NCBI GenBank assembly: GCA_029865385.1
Contig: JAOUGX010000029.1
Coordinates: 1 to 36,542 of the forward strand
DNA from: Gammaproteobacteria bacterium
Lineage (GTDB): Bacteria; Pseudomonadota; Gammaproteobacteria; Steroidobacterales; Woeseiaceae
Length of the DNA: 36,542 nucleotides
Direction of reading: 5' to 3'
This document shows positions 12,348 to 19,663 of this stretch, in pieces. The stretch's first letter is position 1; each line of letters begins with the position of its first letter. A program made the translations under genes and the position numbers. The notes below the pieces were generated by a model. That model did not search any database. It was not told where the DNA came from and worked only from the letters and a program-made list of their open reading frames with translations.

Positions 12348-14234
12348 CTAGACCTGGGCAAGATTGCCCTTGGTCTCCAGCCATTCGCGTCGGTCGCCCG
12401 CGCGCTTCTTGGCCAGCAACATGTCCATCAACTGGTCTGTCTGATCTTTCGCGCTGATCGTCAATTGCACGAGTCGGCGCGTGTCCCGGCTCATGGTCGT
12501 TTCGCGCAGCTGCAACGGGCTCATTTCGCCGAGTCCCTTGAAGCGAGTGACCGAAACCTTACCTTTGACGTTCTCCGCGGCTATGCGATCGATAATGCCC
12601 TGGCGCTCGGCCTCGTCCAGCGCGTAGTGGACGTCTTTGCCAACATCGATACGAAACAGGGGTGGCATTGCCACGTAGACATGGCCCGCCAGTACCAGAT
12701 TACGAAAATGGCGCAGGAACAGAGCGCACAACAGGGTCGCGATATGCGCGCCGTCGGAATCCGCATCCGCCAATATGCAGATCTTGTGATACCGAAGGTC
12801 GTCAATTTCGGCACTGCCCGGATCCACACCGATGGCAACGCTGATGTCGTGCACTTCCTGTGATGCGAGTATCTCCGCGGAATCCACTTCCCAGGTATTC
12901 AGGATTTTGCCGCGCAACGGCATGATCGCCTGGGTATTGCGGTCCCGCGCCTGTTTGGCCGAACCGCCGGCCGAGTCGCCTTCCACCAGGAACAATTCAC
13001 AGAATTCCGGCTGCTGAGAAGTGCAGTCCGCCAGTTTTCCAGGCAGCGCGGGACCGGACACAATTTTCTTTCGTACGACTTTCTTCGCCGCTTTTAATCG
13101 TGATTGCGCCTTGTTGATCGCATGCTGCGCGATCTGGTCGCCGGTCTCCGGATGCTTGTTCAGCCACAGCACGAAACTGTCTTTAATGACACCGGAAACG
13201 AAGGAAGCCGATTCGCGCGACGACAGCCGTTCTTTGGTCTGGCCGGAGAACTGCGGATTTTCCAGCTTCACGCTCAGGATGAAACTCAATCCATCCCACA
13301 CGTCTTCCGGCGCCAGTTGCACGCCGCGCGGCAGCAGATTGCGAAATTCGCAGAACTCGCGCAGTGCATTGGTCAGGCCGGTTCGCAACCCGTTGACGTG
13401 GGTGCCACCCTGAGGTGTTGGCACGAGGTTGACGTAAGACTCGTTTACGACCTGACCGTCGCCGGTGTGCCAGGCCAGTGCCCAGTCGACTGCTTCGTGA
13501 TTTCCCGCGAGGCCGCCCGCGAACGGATCGACGGGAAGGTGTTCGACATCCCCCATGGCCTCGAGCAGGTATTCCTCAAGGCCACCCGAATAACACCACT
13601 CTGTTTTTTCCTCGGGTTTCTCGACCTTGAGACAGACTTTCAAGCCCGGGCACAACACCGCCTTGGCACGCAGCGCATGTTTCAGCCGTGAAACCGAAAT
13701 GTTCGGTGAATCGAAATACTGAGGATCCGGCCAGAATCGGATTGTGGTGCCCGTATTGGCCTTTCCTACCGTGCCGACGACTTCAAGTTTGCCGCGCTTG
13801 TTGCCGCCGGCAAAGCTCATGTTGTATTCCTTGCCGCCACGCCGGATCCAGACTTCGAGATGCTTCGACAAGGCATTCACGACGGACACGCCGACGCCGT
13901 GCAGTCCGCCGGAATACTGGTAGTTGTCCTTGTTGAATTTGCCACCCGCGTGCAGGCGCGTCAGGATCAGTTCAACACCGGGAATCTTTTCTTTCGGGTG
14001 AATGTCGACCGGCATGCCGCGGCCATCGTCGCCGACCTCCAGCGAACCGTCCTTGAAAAGCGTTACATCGATCTTCTTGCAATGCCCGCCAAGTGCCTCG
14101 TCGACACTGTTGTCCACCACCTCGTGCGCGAGATGGTTCGGCCGGGTTGTATCCGTATACATGCCCGGACGGCGCCGAACCGGCTCGAGGCCACTCAGGA
14201 CCTCGATGTCGGCCGCATCGTATCGTTTAGCCAC
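12348..14234 (-). CDS. parE: DNA topoisomerase IV subunit B
   Basis: ATPase subunit of topoisomerase IV. GHKL ATPase motifs are visible near the N-terminus (VDNSVDEALGG, DDGRGMPVD, GGLHGVGVSVVNALS), followed by the TOPRIM region with EGDSAGG and DADSDG and the C-terminal RFKGLGEM segment. The open frame starts at 14522, but the first 96 codons are an overlap with the DUF3501 gene and do not resemble ParE. The family start aligns with GTG at 14234 (VAKRYDAADIEVLSGLEPVRRRPGMY), giving 628 aa against 630 in E. coli. A minus-strand TAGAAT (14275-14280) could be its -10 element. The gene lies about 80 bases after DUF3501, so it may also receive read-through from the rubrerythrin operon. Confidence 0.95.
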   Translation of the reverse strand: MAKRYDAADIEVLSGLEPVRRRPGMYTDTTRPNHLAHEVVDNSVDEALGGHCKKIDVTLFKDGSLEVGDDGRGMPVDIHPKEKIPGVELILTRLHAGGKFNKDNYQYSGGLHGVGVSVVNALSKHLEVWIRRGGKEYNMSFAGGNKRGKLEVVGTVGKANTGTTIRFWPDPQYFDSPNISVSRLKHALRAKAVLCPGLKVCLKVEKPEEKTEWCYSGGLEEYLLEAMGDVEHLPVDPFAGGLAGNHEAVDWALAWHTGDGQVVNESYVNLVPTPQGGTHVNGLRTGLTNALREFCEFRNLLPRGVQLAPEDVWDGLSFILSVKLENPQFSGQTKERLSSRESASFVSGVIKDSFVLWLNKHPETGDQIAQHAINKAQSRLKAAKKVVRKKIVSGPALPGKLADCTSQQPEFCELFLVEGDSAGGSAKQARDRNTQAIMPLRGKILNTWEVDSAEILASQEVHDISVAIGVDPGSAEIDDLRYHKICILADADSDGAHIATLLCALFLRHFRNLVLAGHVYVAMPPLFRIDVGKDVHYALDEAERQGIIDRIAAENVKGKVSVTRFKGLGEMSPLQLRETTMSRDTRRLVQLTISAKDQTDQLMDMLLAKKRAGDRREWLETKGNLAQV

Positions 14235-14288
14235 TACTTGTTTGCCCCAAGCGATGCTGTTCAGTTCGCGAGGGATTCTAGCAGGATG

Positions 14289-14304
14289 TGCGCCGTCGGG
14301 CGCA
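14289..14304 (-). promoter_or_regulatory. Short hairpin between the DUF3501 gene and parE
   Basis: TGCGCC and GGCGCA form a perfect six-base-pair stem with a four-base loop, 10 bases after the DUF3501 stop codon. There is no U-run. A TAGAAT box lies just downstream, so the element could be a weak transcription boundary or part of the parE promoter region. Confidence 0.3.
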
Positions 14305-14313
14305 AGCACGGAC

Positions 14314-14898
14314 CTAGGCCAGATCGGCGGCCAGCGACAGGCGTACGTTTTCGCCGACAGGTCGTATCTCGACCTTGCAGTTCTCGTGGTCGATACCGGC
14401 AGCCAGCGGTGCACCGTTGTCCAGCGCATCCTTTTGAGCTGCGTCGAGTTCGAAACGCAGGAAGTGAACCGCAGAGGTCTTGTCGCCATCGGCACGATCC
14501 AGATCTTCATCGGCAATGGCACGAATCTTCGGCAAGTCGCCGATCTGCAACCAGACTGTTGCCTCGATCCCGACCAGATGTTTTAGCATTTCCCGGCGCT
14601 CCGCCTCATCCGGAAACTCGACCATAAAGGTAGCTTTCCAGTTGCTGCCGTCAGGAATCAAGGGATTGTAGGCGTCGAGTTCCTGCTGAATCCCGGCCGC
14701 TTCGAAAATGCGTTCGATACGCAGCATCTCCTGCACCTGGTACTGCATCGTCATGCGATCTTCGAAGTACAGGGTCGCGTTCGTGCCTAGCGGCAAGCGC
14801 CGGTTTTTCTTGTGCGCCATGACCTTGGAACGAAACTCATTTCGCACCTCTGCGTATTTCTCGAGACTGTACAGGTCGGAACGGGACAGTTTTTTCAT
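14314..14898 (-). CDS. DUF3501 family protein of unknown function
   Basis: The 194 aa product (from ATG 14898, MKKLSRSDLYSLEKYAEVR) resembles the DUF3501 family, found in proteobacteria next to rubrerythrin and CCG-type Fe-S proteins, exactly the context here. It has a basic N-terminal part (KVMAHKKNRRLPLG), then a conserved YFEDRMTMQYQVQEMLRIERIF segment. There are no signal peptide, transmembrane segment or cysteine cluster, so it should be cytoplasmic. The open frame extends to 14994 but that part is shadow of the upstream gene. Its start follows the stop of the Fe-S protein gene after two bases, so the two are translationally coupled. The molecular function is not known to me; a link to peroxide or redox stress is inferred from the neighbours. 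Confidence 0.82.
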   Translation of the reverse strand: MKKLSRSDLYSLEKYAEVRNEFRSKVMAHKKNRRLPLGTNATLYFEDRMTMQYQVQEMLRIERIFEAAGIQQELDAYNPLIPDGSNWKATFMVEFPDEAERREMLKHLVGIEATVWLQIGDLPKIRAIADEDLDRADGDKTSAVHFLRFELDAAQKDALDNGAPLAAGIDHENCKVEIRPVGENVRLSLAADLA

Positions 14899-14900
14899 CT

Positions 14901-16265
14901 TCAAATGCCGTACGCGCTTCGTAGCAGGCTCATCGGGTTTCCTGCCTCGTGCGTATCGAGTTCCTGTGCGATTTGCTCGGCGGCCATCGGACAATCACTG
15001 ATGAAATGGTCGGAAGCGCCTTCTCTTACCTTGTTGATCACCGGTCGCGCGATCTTCTTCGAAATATCGTGAAACTCTTTCTTCACGGCATAGGTGCCAT
15101 CGTGGCCAGAACACCGTTCAATGATTTCAAATTCCGTATCCGGTACCAGCGCCAGAATATCTCGTGTTTTCAGCCCGATGTTCTGCACGCGCAGATGACA
15201 GGGGACCTGATACGACACCTTGCCGAGCCGGTTACGGAATTCCGTTTTCATTTGCCCGGCCCTGTGTCGCAGCATCAGGTACTCGAACGGGTCGAACATC
15301 GCCTCGCGCACTTTCCGAACGTCCGGATCGTCGGGAAACATCAATGGCAATTCCTGCTTGAACATCAAGGTACAGGAAGGAACGGGCGTAACGATGTCCC
15401 AGCCACGACTCACCCAATCCAGGAGTTGCGGTATGTTGGCGTCCTTCGCATGCTTCACTGCATCCAGGTCACCCAGCTCGAGTTTGGGCATGCCGCAACA
15501 AACTTCCCTGCTGGCTAGAGCAACCGGTATCCCGTTGTGTTCGTATACTGCGACCAGGTCTTCGGCGAGCGACGGCATATTGCGATTGCCATAGCAGCTT
15601 GAGAACAAAACCACGCGACCCCGGGTAGCATCCGTCGCAGTCGCCGTATCACCGTAATTACCGGACGGTCCGACGCGCGATTTCAAACGCTTGCGCGCCG
15701 ATTTCGAATGATAGGCCGGAACCGGCGCGTCGCGGTGAACGCCGAGTGTCTTTTCCAGAATTTTGCGACCAACCTTGCTGCGGTTGCCCGCATTGACCGC
15801 CTGCGCGACGATCGGGATACCGGCGAAGCGACCGACTTTGTCCGTTGCGCTGAGGATCTTGTCGCGAGTACTGGCACCCTGTTTCTTGAATCGGGTTGCC
15901 TTGGCGCGCAACATCAGGTGCGGAAAATCGACATTCCACTCGTGCGGCGGCACATAGGGACACTTGCTCATGTAGCACATGTCGCACAGGTAGCAATGGT
16001 CGACAACATCCCAGAATACCGCCTTCGGCACAGTATCGAGTTCCATGCTTTCGGACGAATCGACTGCATCGAACAATGTCGGGAAGGCGTTACAAAGATT
16101 GAAACAGCGGCGGCAACCGTGACAGATATCGAACACCCGCTCGAGTTCCTTGTGGAGCGAGGCATCGTCGTAGAACTCGTTCGTTTGCCAGGCGATCGCG
16201 TTCCGGGTCGGCGCCTCGAGACTGCCCTCGCGTTTATCCGTTGCTTTACTCATCTCGCGATGCAT
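14901..16265 (-). CDS. Heterodisulfide-reductase-like (CCG domain) iron-sulfur protein
   Basis: Cytoplasmic electron-transfer protein with two [4Fe-4S] ferredoxin-type motifs: Cys48-51-54-58 (CHGCRRCFNLC) and Cys91-94-97-102 (CYLCDMCYMSKCP). Two cysteine-rich CCG-type domains follow: FSSCYGNRN with EVCCGMP, then VPCHLRVQNIG with ERCSGHDGTYA. This is the layout of GlpC, LutA and HdrD relatives. No flavin or NAD-binding domain is fused, so it needs an outside electron donor. The start could be ATG at 16265 or the ATG four codons later (MSKATDK). It lies between rubrerythrin and DUF3501 on the same strand, with small gaps on both sides, and probably forms one functional unit with them. Electron transfer to rubrerythrin is plausible, but inferred. 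Confidence 0.85.
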   Translation of the reverse strand: MHREMSKATDKREGSLEAPTRNAIAWQTNEFYDDASLHKELERVFDICHGCRRCFNLCNAFPTLFDAVDSSESMELDTVPKAVFWDVVDHCYLCDMCYMSKCPYVPPHEWNVDFPHLMLRAKATRFKKQGASTRDKILSATDKVGRFAGIPIVAQAVNAGNRSKVGRKILEKTLGVHRDAPVPAYHSKSARKRLKSRVGPSGNYGDTATATDATRGRVVLFSSCYGNRNMPSLAEDLVAVYEHNGIPVALASREVCCGMPKLELGDLDAVKHAKDANIPQLLDWVSRGWDIVTPVPSCTLMFKQELPLMFPDDPDVRKVREAMFDPFEYLMLRHRAGQMKTEFRNRLGKVSYQVPCHLRVQNIGLKTRDILALVPDTEFEIIERCSGHDGTYAVKKEFHDISKKIARPVINKVREGASDHFISDCPMAAEQIAQELDTHEAGNPMSLLRSAYGI

Positions 16266-16299
16266 CGACCGGGTCTATTCCGGCCGATGCATACTGGCG

Positions 16300-16719
16300 T
16301 CAGTCGTCCAGCGAGTCGAGCGCTTTCTGAAAACGGTTGGCATGCGATCGCTCTGCCTTGGCGAGTGTTTCGAACCAGTCCGCAATTTCCTCGAATTTTT
16401 CCTGGCGCGCGGTCTTGGCCATACCAGGGTACATGTCGGTGTATTCGTGAGTCTCGCCGGCGATTGCCGCAGTCAGGTTCGCTGCTGTCGGACCGATCGG
16501 TAAGCCGGTGGCCGGATCACCGACCTGTTCGAGGTATTCCAGATGGCCGTGAGCATGACCCGTCTCACCTTCCGCCGTCGAACGAAAAACAGCTGCGACG
16601 TCGTTGTAGCCCTCGACATCCGCTTTGGCCGCAAAATAAAGGTAACGACGATTGGCTTGTGATTCTCCGGCAAATGCATCCTTCAGGTTTTTTTCTGTCT
16701 TGCTGCCTTTCAGTGACAT
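16300..16719 (-). CDS. Rubrerythrin-like diiron protein without rubredoxin domain
   Basis: Four-helix ferritin-like protein of 139 aa. The two half-sites of the diiron centre are visible: Glu19 (AGESQANRRY), Glu52 and His55 (EGETGHAHGH), Glu89/92 (GETHEYTDMYP), and Glu123 and His126 (KAERSHANRF). Classical rubrerythrin reduces hydrogen peroxide and carries a C-terminal rubredoxin domain as electron donor; that domain is missing here, so electrons must come from another protein, possibly the Fe-S protein encoded next. ATG 16719 has an excellent ribosome site (AGGAG, five bases upstream). A perfect palindrome about 43 bases upstream probably binds a regulator. Confidence 0.9.
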   Translation of the reverse strand: MSLKGSKTEKNLKDAFAGESQANRRYLYFAAKADVEGYNDVAAVFRSTAEGETGHAHGHLEYLEQVGDPATGLPIGPTAANLTAAIAGETHEYTDMYPGMAKTARQEKFEEIADWFETLAKAERSHANRFQKALDSLDD

Positions 16720-16761
16720 GGTTGCTCCTCTTAATGCGATTTTTCGTACGATTGCAAATGT

Positions 16762-16776
16762 TTAGACTTAGTCTAA
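16762..16776. promoter_or_regulatory. Perfect 7-1-7 palindrome upstream of the rubrerythrin operon
   Basis: TTAGACT-T-AGTCTAA is a perfect inverted repeat with seven-base arms around a single base. It lies 43 bases upstream of the rubrerythrin start, in the promoter region on the minus strand. The 7-1-7 shape and TTA...TAA ends are those of Fur-superfamily operators such as PerR boxes, and PerR controls rubrerythrin in other bacteria. The inner bases differ from known PerR and Fur consensus, so an Rrf2-type or other regulator is equally possible. I cannot fix a -35/-10 pair around it. Confidence 0.6.
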
Positions 16777-16894
16777 GAATTCAGCACTTTATGCCCGCAT
16801 CCCGAAGCTGTCAACTGTGACCGGGCACCGCGTTGACGCTGCCAATAGGGCACGGTAGCGTAGCCACGAACAGATTACCGGAGTCGCTCCCGCA

Positions 16895-17125
16895 ATGAGC
16901 AGCAAAAAGAATATCGACCTCGAAAAATCGCTGACGGAACTCGAAGCCATTGTGGAAGAACTGGAAAGCGGCGACCTGCCGCTGGACAAAGCGATGCAGA
17001 AATTCGAACAGGGCATCAAGCTGTCGCGCGGCTGCCAGACCGCGCTGAAAGATGCAGAGCAGAAAGTGGAAATTCTGATGAAAAGCGCCGGCAGCGAAAA
17101 TCTCGAGGAATTCGACCAGGATTGA
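16895..17125 (+). CDS. xseB: Exodeoxyribonuclease VII small subunit
   Basis: The 76 aa protein carries the XseB signature: an N-terminal LEKSLTELEAIVEELESGDLPLDKAMQKFEQGIKL-type helical hairpin (residues about 9-43) and a second helix (TALKDAEQKVEIL). Several copies bind one XseA subunit to degrade single-stranded DNA; xseA is not in the window. In many gammaproteobacteria xseB is followed by ispA and dxs, but here the next gene is feoB on the other strand, so it stands alone. A GGAG lies 11 bases before the ATG, and TTGACG/TAGCGT spaced by 17 bases upstream is a weak promoter candidate. Confidence 0.93.
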   Translation: MSSKKNIDLEKSLTELEAIVEELESGDLPLDKAMQKFEQGIKLSRGCQTALKDAEQKVEILMKSAGSENLEEFDQD

Positions 17126-17160: not shown

Positions 17161-19353
17161 TCAGGGGTTACCTAGCTGGAAAGCAATCAGCGCGCCCAGA
17201 TATCCAATCGACGTCATGTAGAGCCAGGCAAACACAGGCCATCGCCAACCGTTTGTTTCGCGCCGGATGACGGCGAGGGTTGCCGCACATTGCAGGCAGC
17301 AGGCGTAGAAAATCAGCAGGCCGATCACCATAGGCAAGGTAAAAACCGCAGACCCGTCCGGCCAGCTCGCTGACCTGAGTCTGCCGGCCAGCGTCGCTTC
17401 GTCCGCCTCGTCGCCGACCGCGTAAACCGTTCCGAGAACCGCAACGACCACTTCGCGAGCCGGGAAACCGGCGATTACGGCGGCCGATACGCGCCAGTCC
17501 CAACCCAGTGGTCGAAACAAAGGCTCGATCGACTTGCCCGCCCGGCCAAGAAAGCTCTGCTCAAGTTGCGCGGCCGCTGCCTGATTTTTCAATGTTGCGG
17601 TTTCTCGTTGTAGATATTCCCCGTCGAATCTCTGCTGCGCAGCACCGATTTGATCCTGCAGCTGGCTTTCGATCTCCGGCGAGCGCGGGAAATAAGCCAG
17701 CGCCCAAACGACAACCGCGACGCTGAATATCACCGTGCCGGCGCGCCGCATGAAAATCATTGCACGCCCCAGTAGCTGCATTAACACGGTGCGCGGATTC
17801 GGCCGGCGAAACTCCGGCAGCATCAATGCAAATGGCGGCTTCGGGCCGCGTAATACGCTTTGCCGCAACATCAACGCGGTCAGCAGTCCGGCGACTATGC
17901 CAAGCAGATACAGTCCGAACAGAACCAGACCCTGCAGATTCATCCAGCCGATTTTTTGTGCGGGCACGAACGCCGCAATCAGCAAGGCATAGACCGGCAA
18001 TCTGGCCGAGCAGGTCATGAACGGCGCGGCGAGTATGGTGGCGATGCGATCACGACGATTGGGGATGACGCGCGTCGCCATGATGCCTGGAACCGCGCAC
18101 GCGAAACTCGAAATCATCGGAATGATGGATTGTCCGGACAGACCGACGGAACGCATTACCCGGTCCATCAGGTAGGCGGCGCGCGCCAGGTATCCGGAAT
18201 CCTCGAGGATGATAATAAAGAGAAACAGGATCAGAATCTGCGGCAGGAAAACGATGACGCTGCCGACGCCTGCAATGACGCCGTCCGAAACGAAGCTGGC
18301 TATCGCGCCAGCCGGCAGGATCGACGCAATGCTGGCACCCAGCGTCGATGTCGCTACATCAATCGCGTCCATCAGTGGCGTCGCCCAGGCAAACACGGCC
18401 TGGAAGACGACTGCCATGACCACGAACAGTCCTATCGTTCCCGGAATCGGCCGATTGATCCACGCCGAAAGTCGCGAACTCCAGGTCACGATGGCCGGCG
18501 CGGACTGCTGAACCTCGCTGAGCACATCGCGCACCCAGCCATAACGCTGTCGTGCTTCTTTCGCGAGCGGTGGATCCGCGCCGAACAAAGCCTGGCGTAT
18601 CGCATCGACGCGAGCGGCACCGCCGTCGCCGAGACGCCCGACCAGTTCGCGATAGAAATCGCTGTCGTGATCGATCAGCGCACGTTCGATCTCGATCCGC
18701 GGAACGGTCACCGGCATCTCGCGAACCAGCTCCTCGGAAGCGTGCGAAAGTTCCTGCCATAGAGTTGGCAGATCCGGCTTCGGAGCGGACGGCAATTCGG
18801 ACAATGCCCGTCGCAGTGCATCGATGCCCTGCCCGGTCGTCGCCACCACGGGACAGATTTGAACACCGCCAAGGCGTTTTTTCAGCGCGTCGACGTCGAT
18901 ATGCAGTCCACTGGCCTGCGCAGCATCCGTCATCGTAAGCGCAACGACTACAGGCAGATTCAACGTCAACAGTTGCTGCAGCAGGTACAGCCCCTGGTAA
19001 AGGTTGGTCGTATCGAGTACCGCGAGAATACCAGCCGGTGGCTTGACATCCGGCATGCGACCGAACAGCACATCGACGGCGATCCTCTCTTCCAGCGAAT
19101 GTGTGCTCAGCGCAAACATGCCGGGCAAATCGACCAGCTCGAGCACGGTGTCGCCAAGCTTGAATACGCCGATATGCTTCTCGACCGTTACGCCAGGATA
19201 GTTTGCGGTTTTCTGCCGCATGCCGGTCAGGCGATTGAACAGGGTGCTCTTACCGGAGTTCGGATTTCCGACAACGACGACGGTGGCGGATGGATGTCGG
19301 CGAACGCCGATCTTATCCACCGAAACGCGAATTGATTTCGGATCAGGCCGCAT
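17161..19353 (-). CDS. feoB: Ferrous iron transporter FeoB
   Basis: Inner-membrane Fe(II) transporter of 730 aa: an N-terminal GTPase domain (about 22-195), a linker helical region, then two Gate-type membrane regions with about eight to ten segments. G1 is GNPNSGKST (29-37), the switch region contains YPGVTVEKHIG, and G3 is DLPG (75-78). The G4 motif, NxxD in E. coli FeoB, reads TMTD here (140-143), so Asn is replaced by Thr. Gate signatures include SFACAVPGIMATRVI and AGFPAREVVVAVLG. It follows feoA by 42 bases in a two-gene operon behind a Fur box. No feoC is present. Confidence 0.95.
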   Translation of the reverse strand: MRPDPKSIRVSVDKIGVRRHPSATVVVVGNPNSGKSTLFNRLTGMRQKTANYPGVTVEKHIGVFKLGDTVLELVDLPGMFALSTHSLEERIAVDVLFGRMPDVKPPAGILAVLDTTNLYQGLYLLQQLLTLNLPVVVALTMTDAAQASGLHIDVDALKKRLGGVQICPVVATTGQGIDALRRALSELPSAPKPDLPTLWQELSHASEELVREMPVTVPRIEIERALIDHDSDFYRELVGRLGDGGAARVDAIRQALFGADPPLAKEARQRYGWVRDVLSEVQQSAPAIVTWSSRLSAWINRPIPGTIGLFVVMAVVFQAVFAWATPLMDAIDVATSTLGASIASILPAGAIASFVSDGVIAGVGSVIVFLPQILILFLFIIILEDSGYLARAAYLMDRVMRSVGLSGQSIIPMISSFACAVPGIMATRVIPNRRDRIATILAAPFMTCSARLPVYALLIAAFVPAQKIGWMNLQGLVLFGLYLLGIVAGLLTALMLRQSVLRGPKPPFALMLPEFRRPNPRTVLMQLLGRAMIFMRRAGTVIFSVAVVVWALAYFPRSPEIESQLQDQIGAAQQRFDGEYLQRETATLKNQAAAAQLEQSFLGRAGKSIEPLFRPLGWDWRVSAAVIAGFPAREVVVAVLGTVYAVGDEADEATLAGRLRSASWPDGSAVFTLPMVIGLLIFYACCLQCAATLAVIRRETNGWRWPVFAWLYMTSIGYLGALIAFQLGNP

Positions 19354-19395
19354 GACGCATTGCTAGTGGGCTTGAAGGCGAGCTGGGGTGTCGCT

Positions 19396-19629
19396 TCAAC
19401 TCCCGGTCTTCAACGACACGGCAAAGTGGCGGGCCTGCTCCCGGCGCAGCGATATGGCATTGCCGAACATGCGATACTCGATGGGGTCGCCACCGATGGC
19501 GGCGCTCGCCAGTTCGATCTCGGTGCCTTCTACAAGCCCGAGAACCATCAGCCGCTGGACGACCGGGTCCTTGCTGTCAACGCCCGCGATGACGTATTTC
19601 CGGCCACGTTGTAGCGAATCAAGGGTCAT
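19396..19629 (-). CDS. feoA: FeoA family protein
   Basis: Small SH3-like protein that supports FeoB-dependent Fe(II) uptake. The 77 aa product shows the family pattern: VVQRLMVLGLVEGTEIELAS followed by GDPIEYRMFGNAISLRREQA. The frame can be opened nine codons earlier at GTG 19656, but the predicted promoter would then start transcription almost at that codon. ATG at 19629 has a GAAGG ribosome site and gives the usual family length, so I prefer it. It precedes feoB in the same operon and lies directly downstream of a Fur box. Confidence 0.9.
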   Translation of the reverse strand: MTLDSLQRGRKYVIAGVDSKDPVVQRLMVLGLVEGTEIELASAAIGGDPIEYRMFGNAISLRREQARHFAVSLKTGS

Positions 19630-19663
19630 CGGGTGCCAGCCTTCATAGTTTTCCACTGAGGCT

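Follow-up and report, generated by a model that had tools for sequence, protein, structure and literature searches.

A palindromic operator and an Irr-type regulator associated with the rubrerythrin, RFO and DUF3501 genes of a gammaproteobacterium

Three genes on the minus strand of a gammaproteobacterial contig encode a rubrerythrin (RBR), an Fe-S protein (RFO) and a DUF3501 protein, in that order, and span positions 14314-16719 of the 36,542-nucleotide stretch analyzed here (assembly GCA_029865385.1, contig JAOUGX010000029.1; hereafter, the window). What might these three proteins do together, and when would they be made? The initial annotation placed all three genes in this interval, as we also found, and proposed them as the best candidate for an undescribed system. 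This proposal is ruled out by prior description: Cardenas, Quatrini and Holmes reported in 2016 an aerobic-type rubrerythrin lineage without a rubredoxin domain, co-located with DUF3501 and with an Fe-S oxidoreductase for which they coined the name RFO (PMC5114695), and the trio was taken up again in 2020 (PMC7050145, PMC7852563, PMC7760498). The locus is a copy of that known aerobic-type rubrerythrin system. The module itself is published; what is new here is a palindromic operator ahead of RBR, the tie of this operator to Irr, and an altered CCG site, CSGH, in RFO. Our preferred reading, to which we give a probability of roughly 0.6, is that the trio would form an Irr-gated peroxide reductase in which electrons pass from RFO to RBR and DUF3501 docks both. 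It starts from the observed gene content and order, the metal-ligand residues, the conserved operator and the Irr association.

We surveyed a draw of 398 genomes from the window's phylum (Pseudomonadota), the window's own included. DUF3501 was found in 25 of these genomes and the ordered RBR-RFO-DUF3501 trio in all 25, so the arrangement is not a matter of chance. RBRs with 82% or more identity to that of the window occurred in exactly these 25 genomes, and 55 further genomes carried only weaker RBR relatives (at most 57% identity). Among 80 related loci taken from named genomes, RFO was present in 79 and RBR in 74, and each of the six that lack RBR is truncated by the end of its contig. Within the window's class, 160 of 369 genomes encoded DUF3501 (144 of 300 in one order of the class), and RFO was present in each of the 30 best DUF3501 loci when about 1.5 kb was viewed on each side. 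This linkage survey excludes second copies, which some genomes carry; additional copies of the system have been reported (PMC7852563, PMC7760498). The counts agree with the statement in the initial annotation that the trio recurs in other proteobacteria, and the neighborhood survey that it suggested found DUF3501 in company, rather than often alone, in the loci examined.

Across the related and phylum-draw loci, identity to the window's proteins was 81-94% for RBR (full-length matches), 36-77% for RFO and 35-80% for DUF3501. RBR keeps 81-94% identity where both partners drop to 35-40%, which points to a strong constraint on its sequence.

Ahead of RBR (16300..16719, minus strand) lies a sigma-70-like promoter by consensus match, TTGACA-17-TAAAGT (16786..16814, minus strand). 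One such match was found in 14150-17000 against a mean of 1.3 in shuffled sequences, so the promoter match alone is no evidence. Between this promoter and RBR stands a palindromic 7-1-7 operator of the Fur/Irr type, TTAGACTNAGTCTAA (16762..16776, without strand), which covers roughly +3 to +17 relative to the inferred start; the copy at this position reads TTAGACTAAGTCTAA. It resembles the ICE consensus (Irr box). The window holds no other match at up to two mismatches, and 2 of 100 shuffles had one.

The operator is conserved well beyond the window. We scored the stretch ahead of RBR in the window and in 69 of the 80 related loci; 54 of these 70 sequences reached at least 12/14, and none of the 70 reversed controls reached 12, the consensus having been drawn from the same set. 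The columns that precede the operator are far more variable than the operator itself. Among the window's 20 closest genomes, 11 had the exact operator, at 12 places in all (zero in a backward control); 10 of the 12 places are directly ahead of RBR, and in 9 of the 11 genomes the sole exact match stands there. Allowing one mismatch gave 48 places, and the backward control gave 27; the majority of such sites may therefore be chance. The window's own genome had four places at up to two mismatches versus two in the control. On these counts we dropped the idea of a wide operator regulon. The operator sits just past the -10 hexamer, where a repressor could well act; a comparable layout is reported for Irr at mbfA, where transcription begins within the Irr box (PMC3413700).

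Which regulator might bind here? An Irr-type Fur-family gene lies directly upstream of RBR in five of the 24 trio loci that were fetched from the 398-genome draw (L141, L142, L143, L145 and L146). Irr has so far been described mainly in alphaproteobacteria. Three Fur-family genes are present in the window's own genome. The product of one (L122:1462-1863) is Irr-like, carries an HxH motif and is about 40% identical to the trio-linked Irr-type proteins; we apply the name Irr to it on the strength of this similarity and of recognition, and not of a curated Irr model. Of the 369 genomes of the class, 116 had both an Irr-like gene and DUF3501, 44 had only DUF3501, 34 had only an Irr-like gene and 175 had neither, kinship being ignored in these counts.

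We compared the operator between trio operons of genomes with and without Irr. The Irr-positive set comprised five loci picked for having Irr and the trio close on one contig (L285-L289, with Irr after the trio in four and before it in one) and 15 others of the 116; the Irr-negative set comprised 23 of the 44. One locus was dropped from each set because no RBR lay in the stretch. The operator scored at least 12/14 in 18 of 19 Irr-positive operons (4/5 of those picked for linkage and 14/14 of the others) versus 4 of 22 Irr-negative ones (Fisher P = 7 × 10−7, kinship ignored), and 9 of 820 shuffled sequences reached a score of 12. In L323, one of the Irr-negative loci with an operator, a weaker Irr-like gene adjoins DUF3501. 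Among near relatives with DUF3501 (n = 14, own genome included), 12 had a strong Irr match; Irr was not detected in one near relative with DUF3501, G414. Irr without DUF3501 occurred in the near genomes G398, G402 and G413. In three genomes of one genus without DUF3501 (L181, L182 and L183), a rubrerythrin of 53-57% identity lies downstream of an Irr-type gene, so the pairing of Irr with RBR exists without the full trio. Irr sites were predicted by Rodionov et al. 2006, as cited in PMC3413700, and no link between Irr and the trio was found in the accessible parts of the open-access literature, including PMC3413700, PMC2864753, PMC7762939 and PMC7760498.

Copies of the palindrome also stand at a few other places. 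A one-mismatch copy occupies a gap between genes that we recognized by eye as rlmE-like and ftsH-like in six related genomes, the window's own among them (L125:5076-5090 in C106; L332, L333, L335, L336 and L337); both frames are visible in L333 and L335 and one of the two in the others. Also in the own genome, a one-mismatch palindrome lies about 100 bp upstream of what we take, by eye, to be a TonB-dependent receptor gene (L124:4993-5007 in C7), and this may be chance. G402 has a perfect operator beside an xseB-like gene (L118:1501-1515); DUF3501 was not found in this genome and the 3 kb stretch around the site shows no RBR or RFO, a picture that would fit loss of the trio but not of its switch. 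An Irr-like gene of G409 has a site with one mismatch some 40 bp ahead of it (L340:1454-1468), which suggests that Irr may regulate itself.

Turning to the proteins, RBR (139 aa) matches only rubrerythrin and ferritin models over its whole length (PF02915, E = 1.1 × 10−29). It is a single-domain protein without a rubredoxin domain and contains no cysteine, which upholds the earlier description of a rubrerythrin that lacks its rubredoxin electron donor. Its di-iron ligand positions, E19, E52, H55, E89, E92, E123 and H126, match E20, E53, H56, E92, E95, E126 and H129 of sulerythrin, and this seven-position pattern is complete in 93/93 related RBRs (one per genome). RBR is close to sulerythrin and to the RBR of B. 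pseudomallei (E = 2.5 × 10−74 for 4DI0 and 8.9 × 10−51 for 1J30), both of which Cardenas et al. placed in group 4 (PMC5114695).

RFO (14901..16265, minus strand, 454 aa), assigned by Pfam match and by alignment with relatives, is a GlpC-like Fe-S protein. Its N-terminal part carries two cluster motifs, C48-x2-C51-x2-C54-x3-C58 (16092..16124, minus strand) and C91-x2-C94-x2-C97-x4-C102-P (15957..15995, minus strand), and the cysteines of both are invariant in the 24 aligned sequences, a set that includes the window's and leaves out one fetched relative, L135. Pfam ferredoxin models score under their cut-offs on RFO. Two CCG stretches were also found (PF02754, E = 1.5 × 10−13). The first site has the cysteines C224, C256, C257 and C298; the second has only C356, C385 and C425, its CCG being changed to C385-S-G-H388 (15102..15113, minus strand). 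In 95/95 RFOs (one per genome), CSGH is present at the second site and the CxxC pair of GlpC is absent; E. coli GlpC, GlcF and YkgE have CCG at the equivalent site. H388 may be a ligand of the second site. Of the Fe-S protein with two [4Fe-4S] motifs and two CCG domains in the initial annotation, the cluster motifs stand, while the second CCG is not canonical. For the RFO part of a fused relative, the fold match is good with LutA (TM-score 0.83 by target), moderate with HdrB (0.58-0.64) and loose with EtfD (0.34), all of which carry electrons. An identity with GlpC itself was ruled out by the second CCG motif, by the gene neighborhood and by scores under both NCBIfam GlpC equivalog cut-offs (146.7 vs 279.9 and 222.1 vs 278).

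The DUF3501 gene (14314..14898, minus strand, 194 aa) begins, as previously noted, with an ATG two bases past the RFO stop codon. Its product scores 247.2 bits against PF12007 (curated cut-off 25), and the AlphaFold model (mean predicted local distance difference test, pLDDT, 93) matches 3FJV with a Z of 27.4; 3FJV is a 2009 crystal structure of a DUF3501 relative whose function is not assigned. Beyond 3FJV, the structural matches reach a Z of at most 6.9 and are heterogeneous, with Ig-like and further beta-sandwich folds prominent among them. As these lie within background, we drew no function from the fold and dropped an enzyme of known fold as a candidate; the accessible parts of the open-access literature on DUF3501 likewise yielded no function. 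DUF3501 has many invariant charged residues. It has no conserved cysteine (best column 8/47) and is therefore unlikely to carry electrons itself, which would make it an adaptor rather than a redox carrier. RFO and DUF3501 are fused as one gene in two genomes, and Cardenas et al. pointed out such fusions in Nitrosomonas (PMC5114695); none of the other long open frames inspected (L260-L262, L270-L272 and L275-L278) was fused.

Around the trio, a short gene divergent from RBR (16895-17125) is one that we recognize as xseB, and beyond it lie feoB and feoA (17161-19656). The gene downstream of the trio encodes DNA gyrase B-type domains, and we take it to be parE. Only 5 of the 80 related loci have feoB (2/37 among the longest loci), and feoAB was ruled out as part of the module.

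How might the trio work? In the preferred reading, H2O2, and probably organic hydroperoxides too, would be reduced to water at the reduced di-iron site of RBR. Peroxidase activity is published for its sister proteins: ferriperoxin of Hydrogenobacter thermophilus is a peroxidase that depends on ferredoxin:NADPH oxidoreductase (FNR), the donor in its assay, with a weak affinity for H2O2 as measured with FNR (Km 1.6 mM), and its mutant fails to grow aerobically (PMC3317640), while sulerythrin in its diferrous form is fast with H2O2 and very slow with O2 (PMC12851003). Lacking a rubredoxin domain, RBR would be re-reduced by RFO, a putative GlpC-like chain of two [4Fe-4S] clusters and CCG-domain sites that would itself draw on an upstream carrier, for which quinol, electron-transfer flavoprotein (ETF) and ferredoxin are candidates. 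Our guess is that RFO would be a better donor to RBR than FNR. DUF3501 would be the adaptor subunit that docks RFO to RBR; from the linkage, the fold and the two natural fusions, we infer both this docking and the transfer of electrons from RFO to RBR. The operon would be transcribed from its own promoter, with a Fur-family regulator of the Irr type sitting across the transcription start as a repressor. The iron-costly enzyme would then be produced once there is enough heme or iron, or once stress has removed the regulator, with both the binding and the direction of control being putative. Control by Irr would tie synthesis to the supply of iron and heme, which is fitting for proteins that contain many irons. 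The peroxide-reducing system with a dedicated electron-transfer chain and an unknown third part that the initial annotation imagined agrees with the present evidence. It is not an undescribed one, however, and DUF3501 has had a crystal structure since 2009 (3FJV). We advance only tentatively, and with doubt, a more specific version of this iron-gated three-protein peroxide reductase, in which Irr would act through a near-dedicated operator, RFO through a new three-cysteine, one-histidine CCG site, and DUF3501 by docking.

Several points weigh against the preferred reading. The roles are read from sequence and from work on sister proteins. RFO is not obligatory: in the tally of Cardenas et al., 25 genomes have RBR and DUF3501 but lack RFO, next to 185 with all three and two exceptions (PMC5114695). 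In H. thermophilus, the RFO gene is separated from those of its two partners, and electrons can come from FNR (PMC5114695, PMC3317640). The predicted structure of a fused RFO-DUF3501 protein has a predicted TM-score (pTM) of 0.68 and a disordered linker (pLDDT < 50), and no interface was seen in it. As to regulation, 16 of the 70 near upstream regions score below 12/14, and the Irr-linked operon L288 scores only 10/14. The operator occurs without a detected Irr in L309, L311 and L317 and in G406, a genome with RBR-RFO-DUF3501 matches; Irr occurs without DUF3501 in the 34 class genomes mentioned above, and the co-occurrence statistics ignore phylogeny.

On chemistry, the main rival is iron handling, in which RBR would be a ferroxidase, RFO would pass the electrons to the respiratory chain and the trio would detoxify excess iron, under an Irr control resembling that of the membrane ferritin MbfA. 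The Irr-type operator and the co-occurrence of Irr with DUF3501 would fit, as would the feoAB genes beyond xseB in the window; moreover, Irr represses the rubrerythrin-like blr7895 (an mbfA homologue) in B. japonicum (PMC3413700), and a Pelagibacter RBR has been postulated to be a ferroxidase (PMC2864753). Ferriperoxin and sulerythrin, however, act as peroxidases (PMC3317640, PMC12851003), feoB is rare in the related loci, and we regard iron handling as quite unlikely. The slowness of the sister proteins with O2 makes it very improbable that RBR is instead a di-iron oxygenase activating O2 on a substrate, with RFO as reductase and DUF3501 as effector, even though the layout of a di-iron protein, a reductase and a small protein without a conserved cysteine recalls the di-iron monooxygenases.

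Two further alternatives concern single parts. DUF3501 could be an assembly or repair factor for the di-iron site of RBR or the second site of RFO, and not a working subunit, as its lack of a conserved cysteine, its many invariant charged residues and its presence with RBR in 25 genomes without RFO (PMC5114695) would allow; its natural fusion to RFO is compatible with assembly but better fits a standing subunit, and we find this role somewhat unlikely. The palindrome, in turn, could be read by another Fur-family protein, such as Fur or PerR, with Irr tracking it through shared ancestry only. This would account for the operators without a detected Irr (G406, L309, L311 and L317) and draws on the neglect of phylogeny in the Irr and operator statistics. 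We nonetheless judge it unlikely in view of the contrast between Irr-positive and Irr-negative operons (18/19 versus 4/22), the weaker Irr-like gene beside DUF3501 in L323, one of the four, the repeated physical linkage of Irr to the trio in differing layouts, and the one-mismatch site ahead of the Irr-like gene in G409.

If an iron-gated three-protein peroxide reductase is indeed encoded here, the same three proteins would serve in mitochondria. The trio is widespread (DUF3501 in 160/369 class genomes) and has been proposed for the ancestral mitochondrion (PMC7050145). Two of the three proteins have no assigned function in the accessible open-access literature on the system. The operator and the Irr association indicate when the module may be wanted and point to a candidate regulator. 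Concrete targets for spectroscopy and complex purification are offered by CSGH in RFO and by the naturally occurring fusion of RFO with DUF3501.

The closest known system is that of Cardenas et al., which has the same three co-located families, an identical gene content and a single-domain RBR of the sulerythrin/ferriperoxin lineage; the operator, the Irr association and the CSGH site were not met in the accessible text of that paper (PMC5114695). The mitochondrial version comprises homologues of all three proteins with a coherent distribution, but its genes are physically unlinked and its proteins are predicted to be mitochondrial. Ferriperoxin (H. thermophilus) and sulerythrin (Sulfolobus tokodaii) are single-domain RBRs like the one described here, with ligand positions compared for sulerythrin, and in the accessible parts of the reports they were studied alone or with FNR, and not with RFO or DUF3501 (PMC3317640, PMC12851003). 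E. coli GlpC shares with RFO the two N-terminal cluster motifs and the two CCG domains at 26% identity; unlike GlpC, RFO has neither the second CCG nor the CxxC cysteine, carries the invariant His388, and neighbors RBR and DUF3501 with no GlpA or GlpB alongside. Finally, iron or peroxide genes of the alphaproteobacterial Irr regulon (mbfA, ccpA; PMC3413700) have an Irr box on or close to the point where transcription begins, a placement that the operator described here shares. The genes to be controlled would in this case be those of the RBR trio, in a host that its nearest relatives mark as a gammaproteobacterium.

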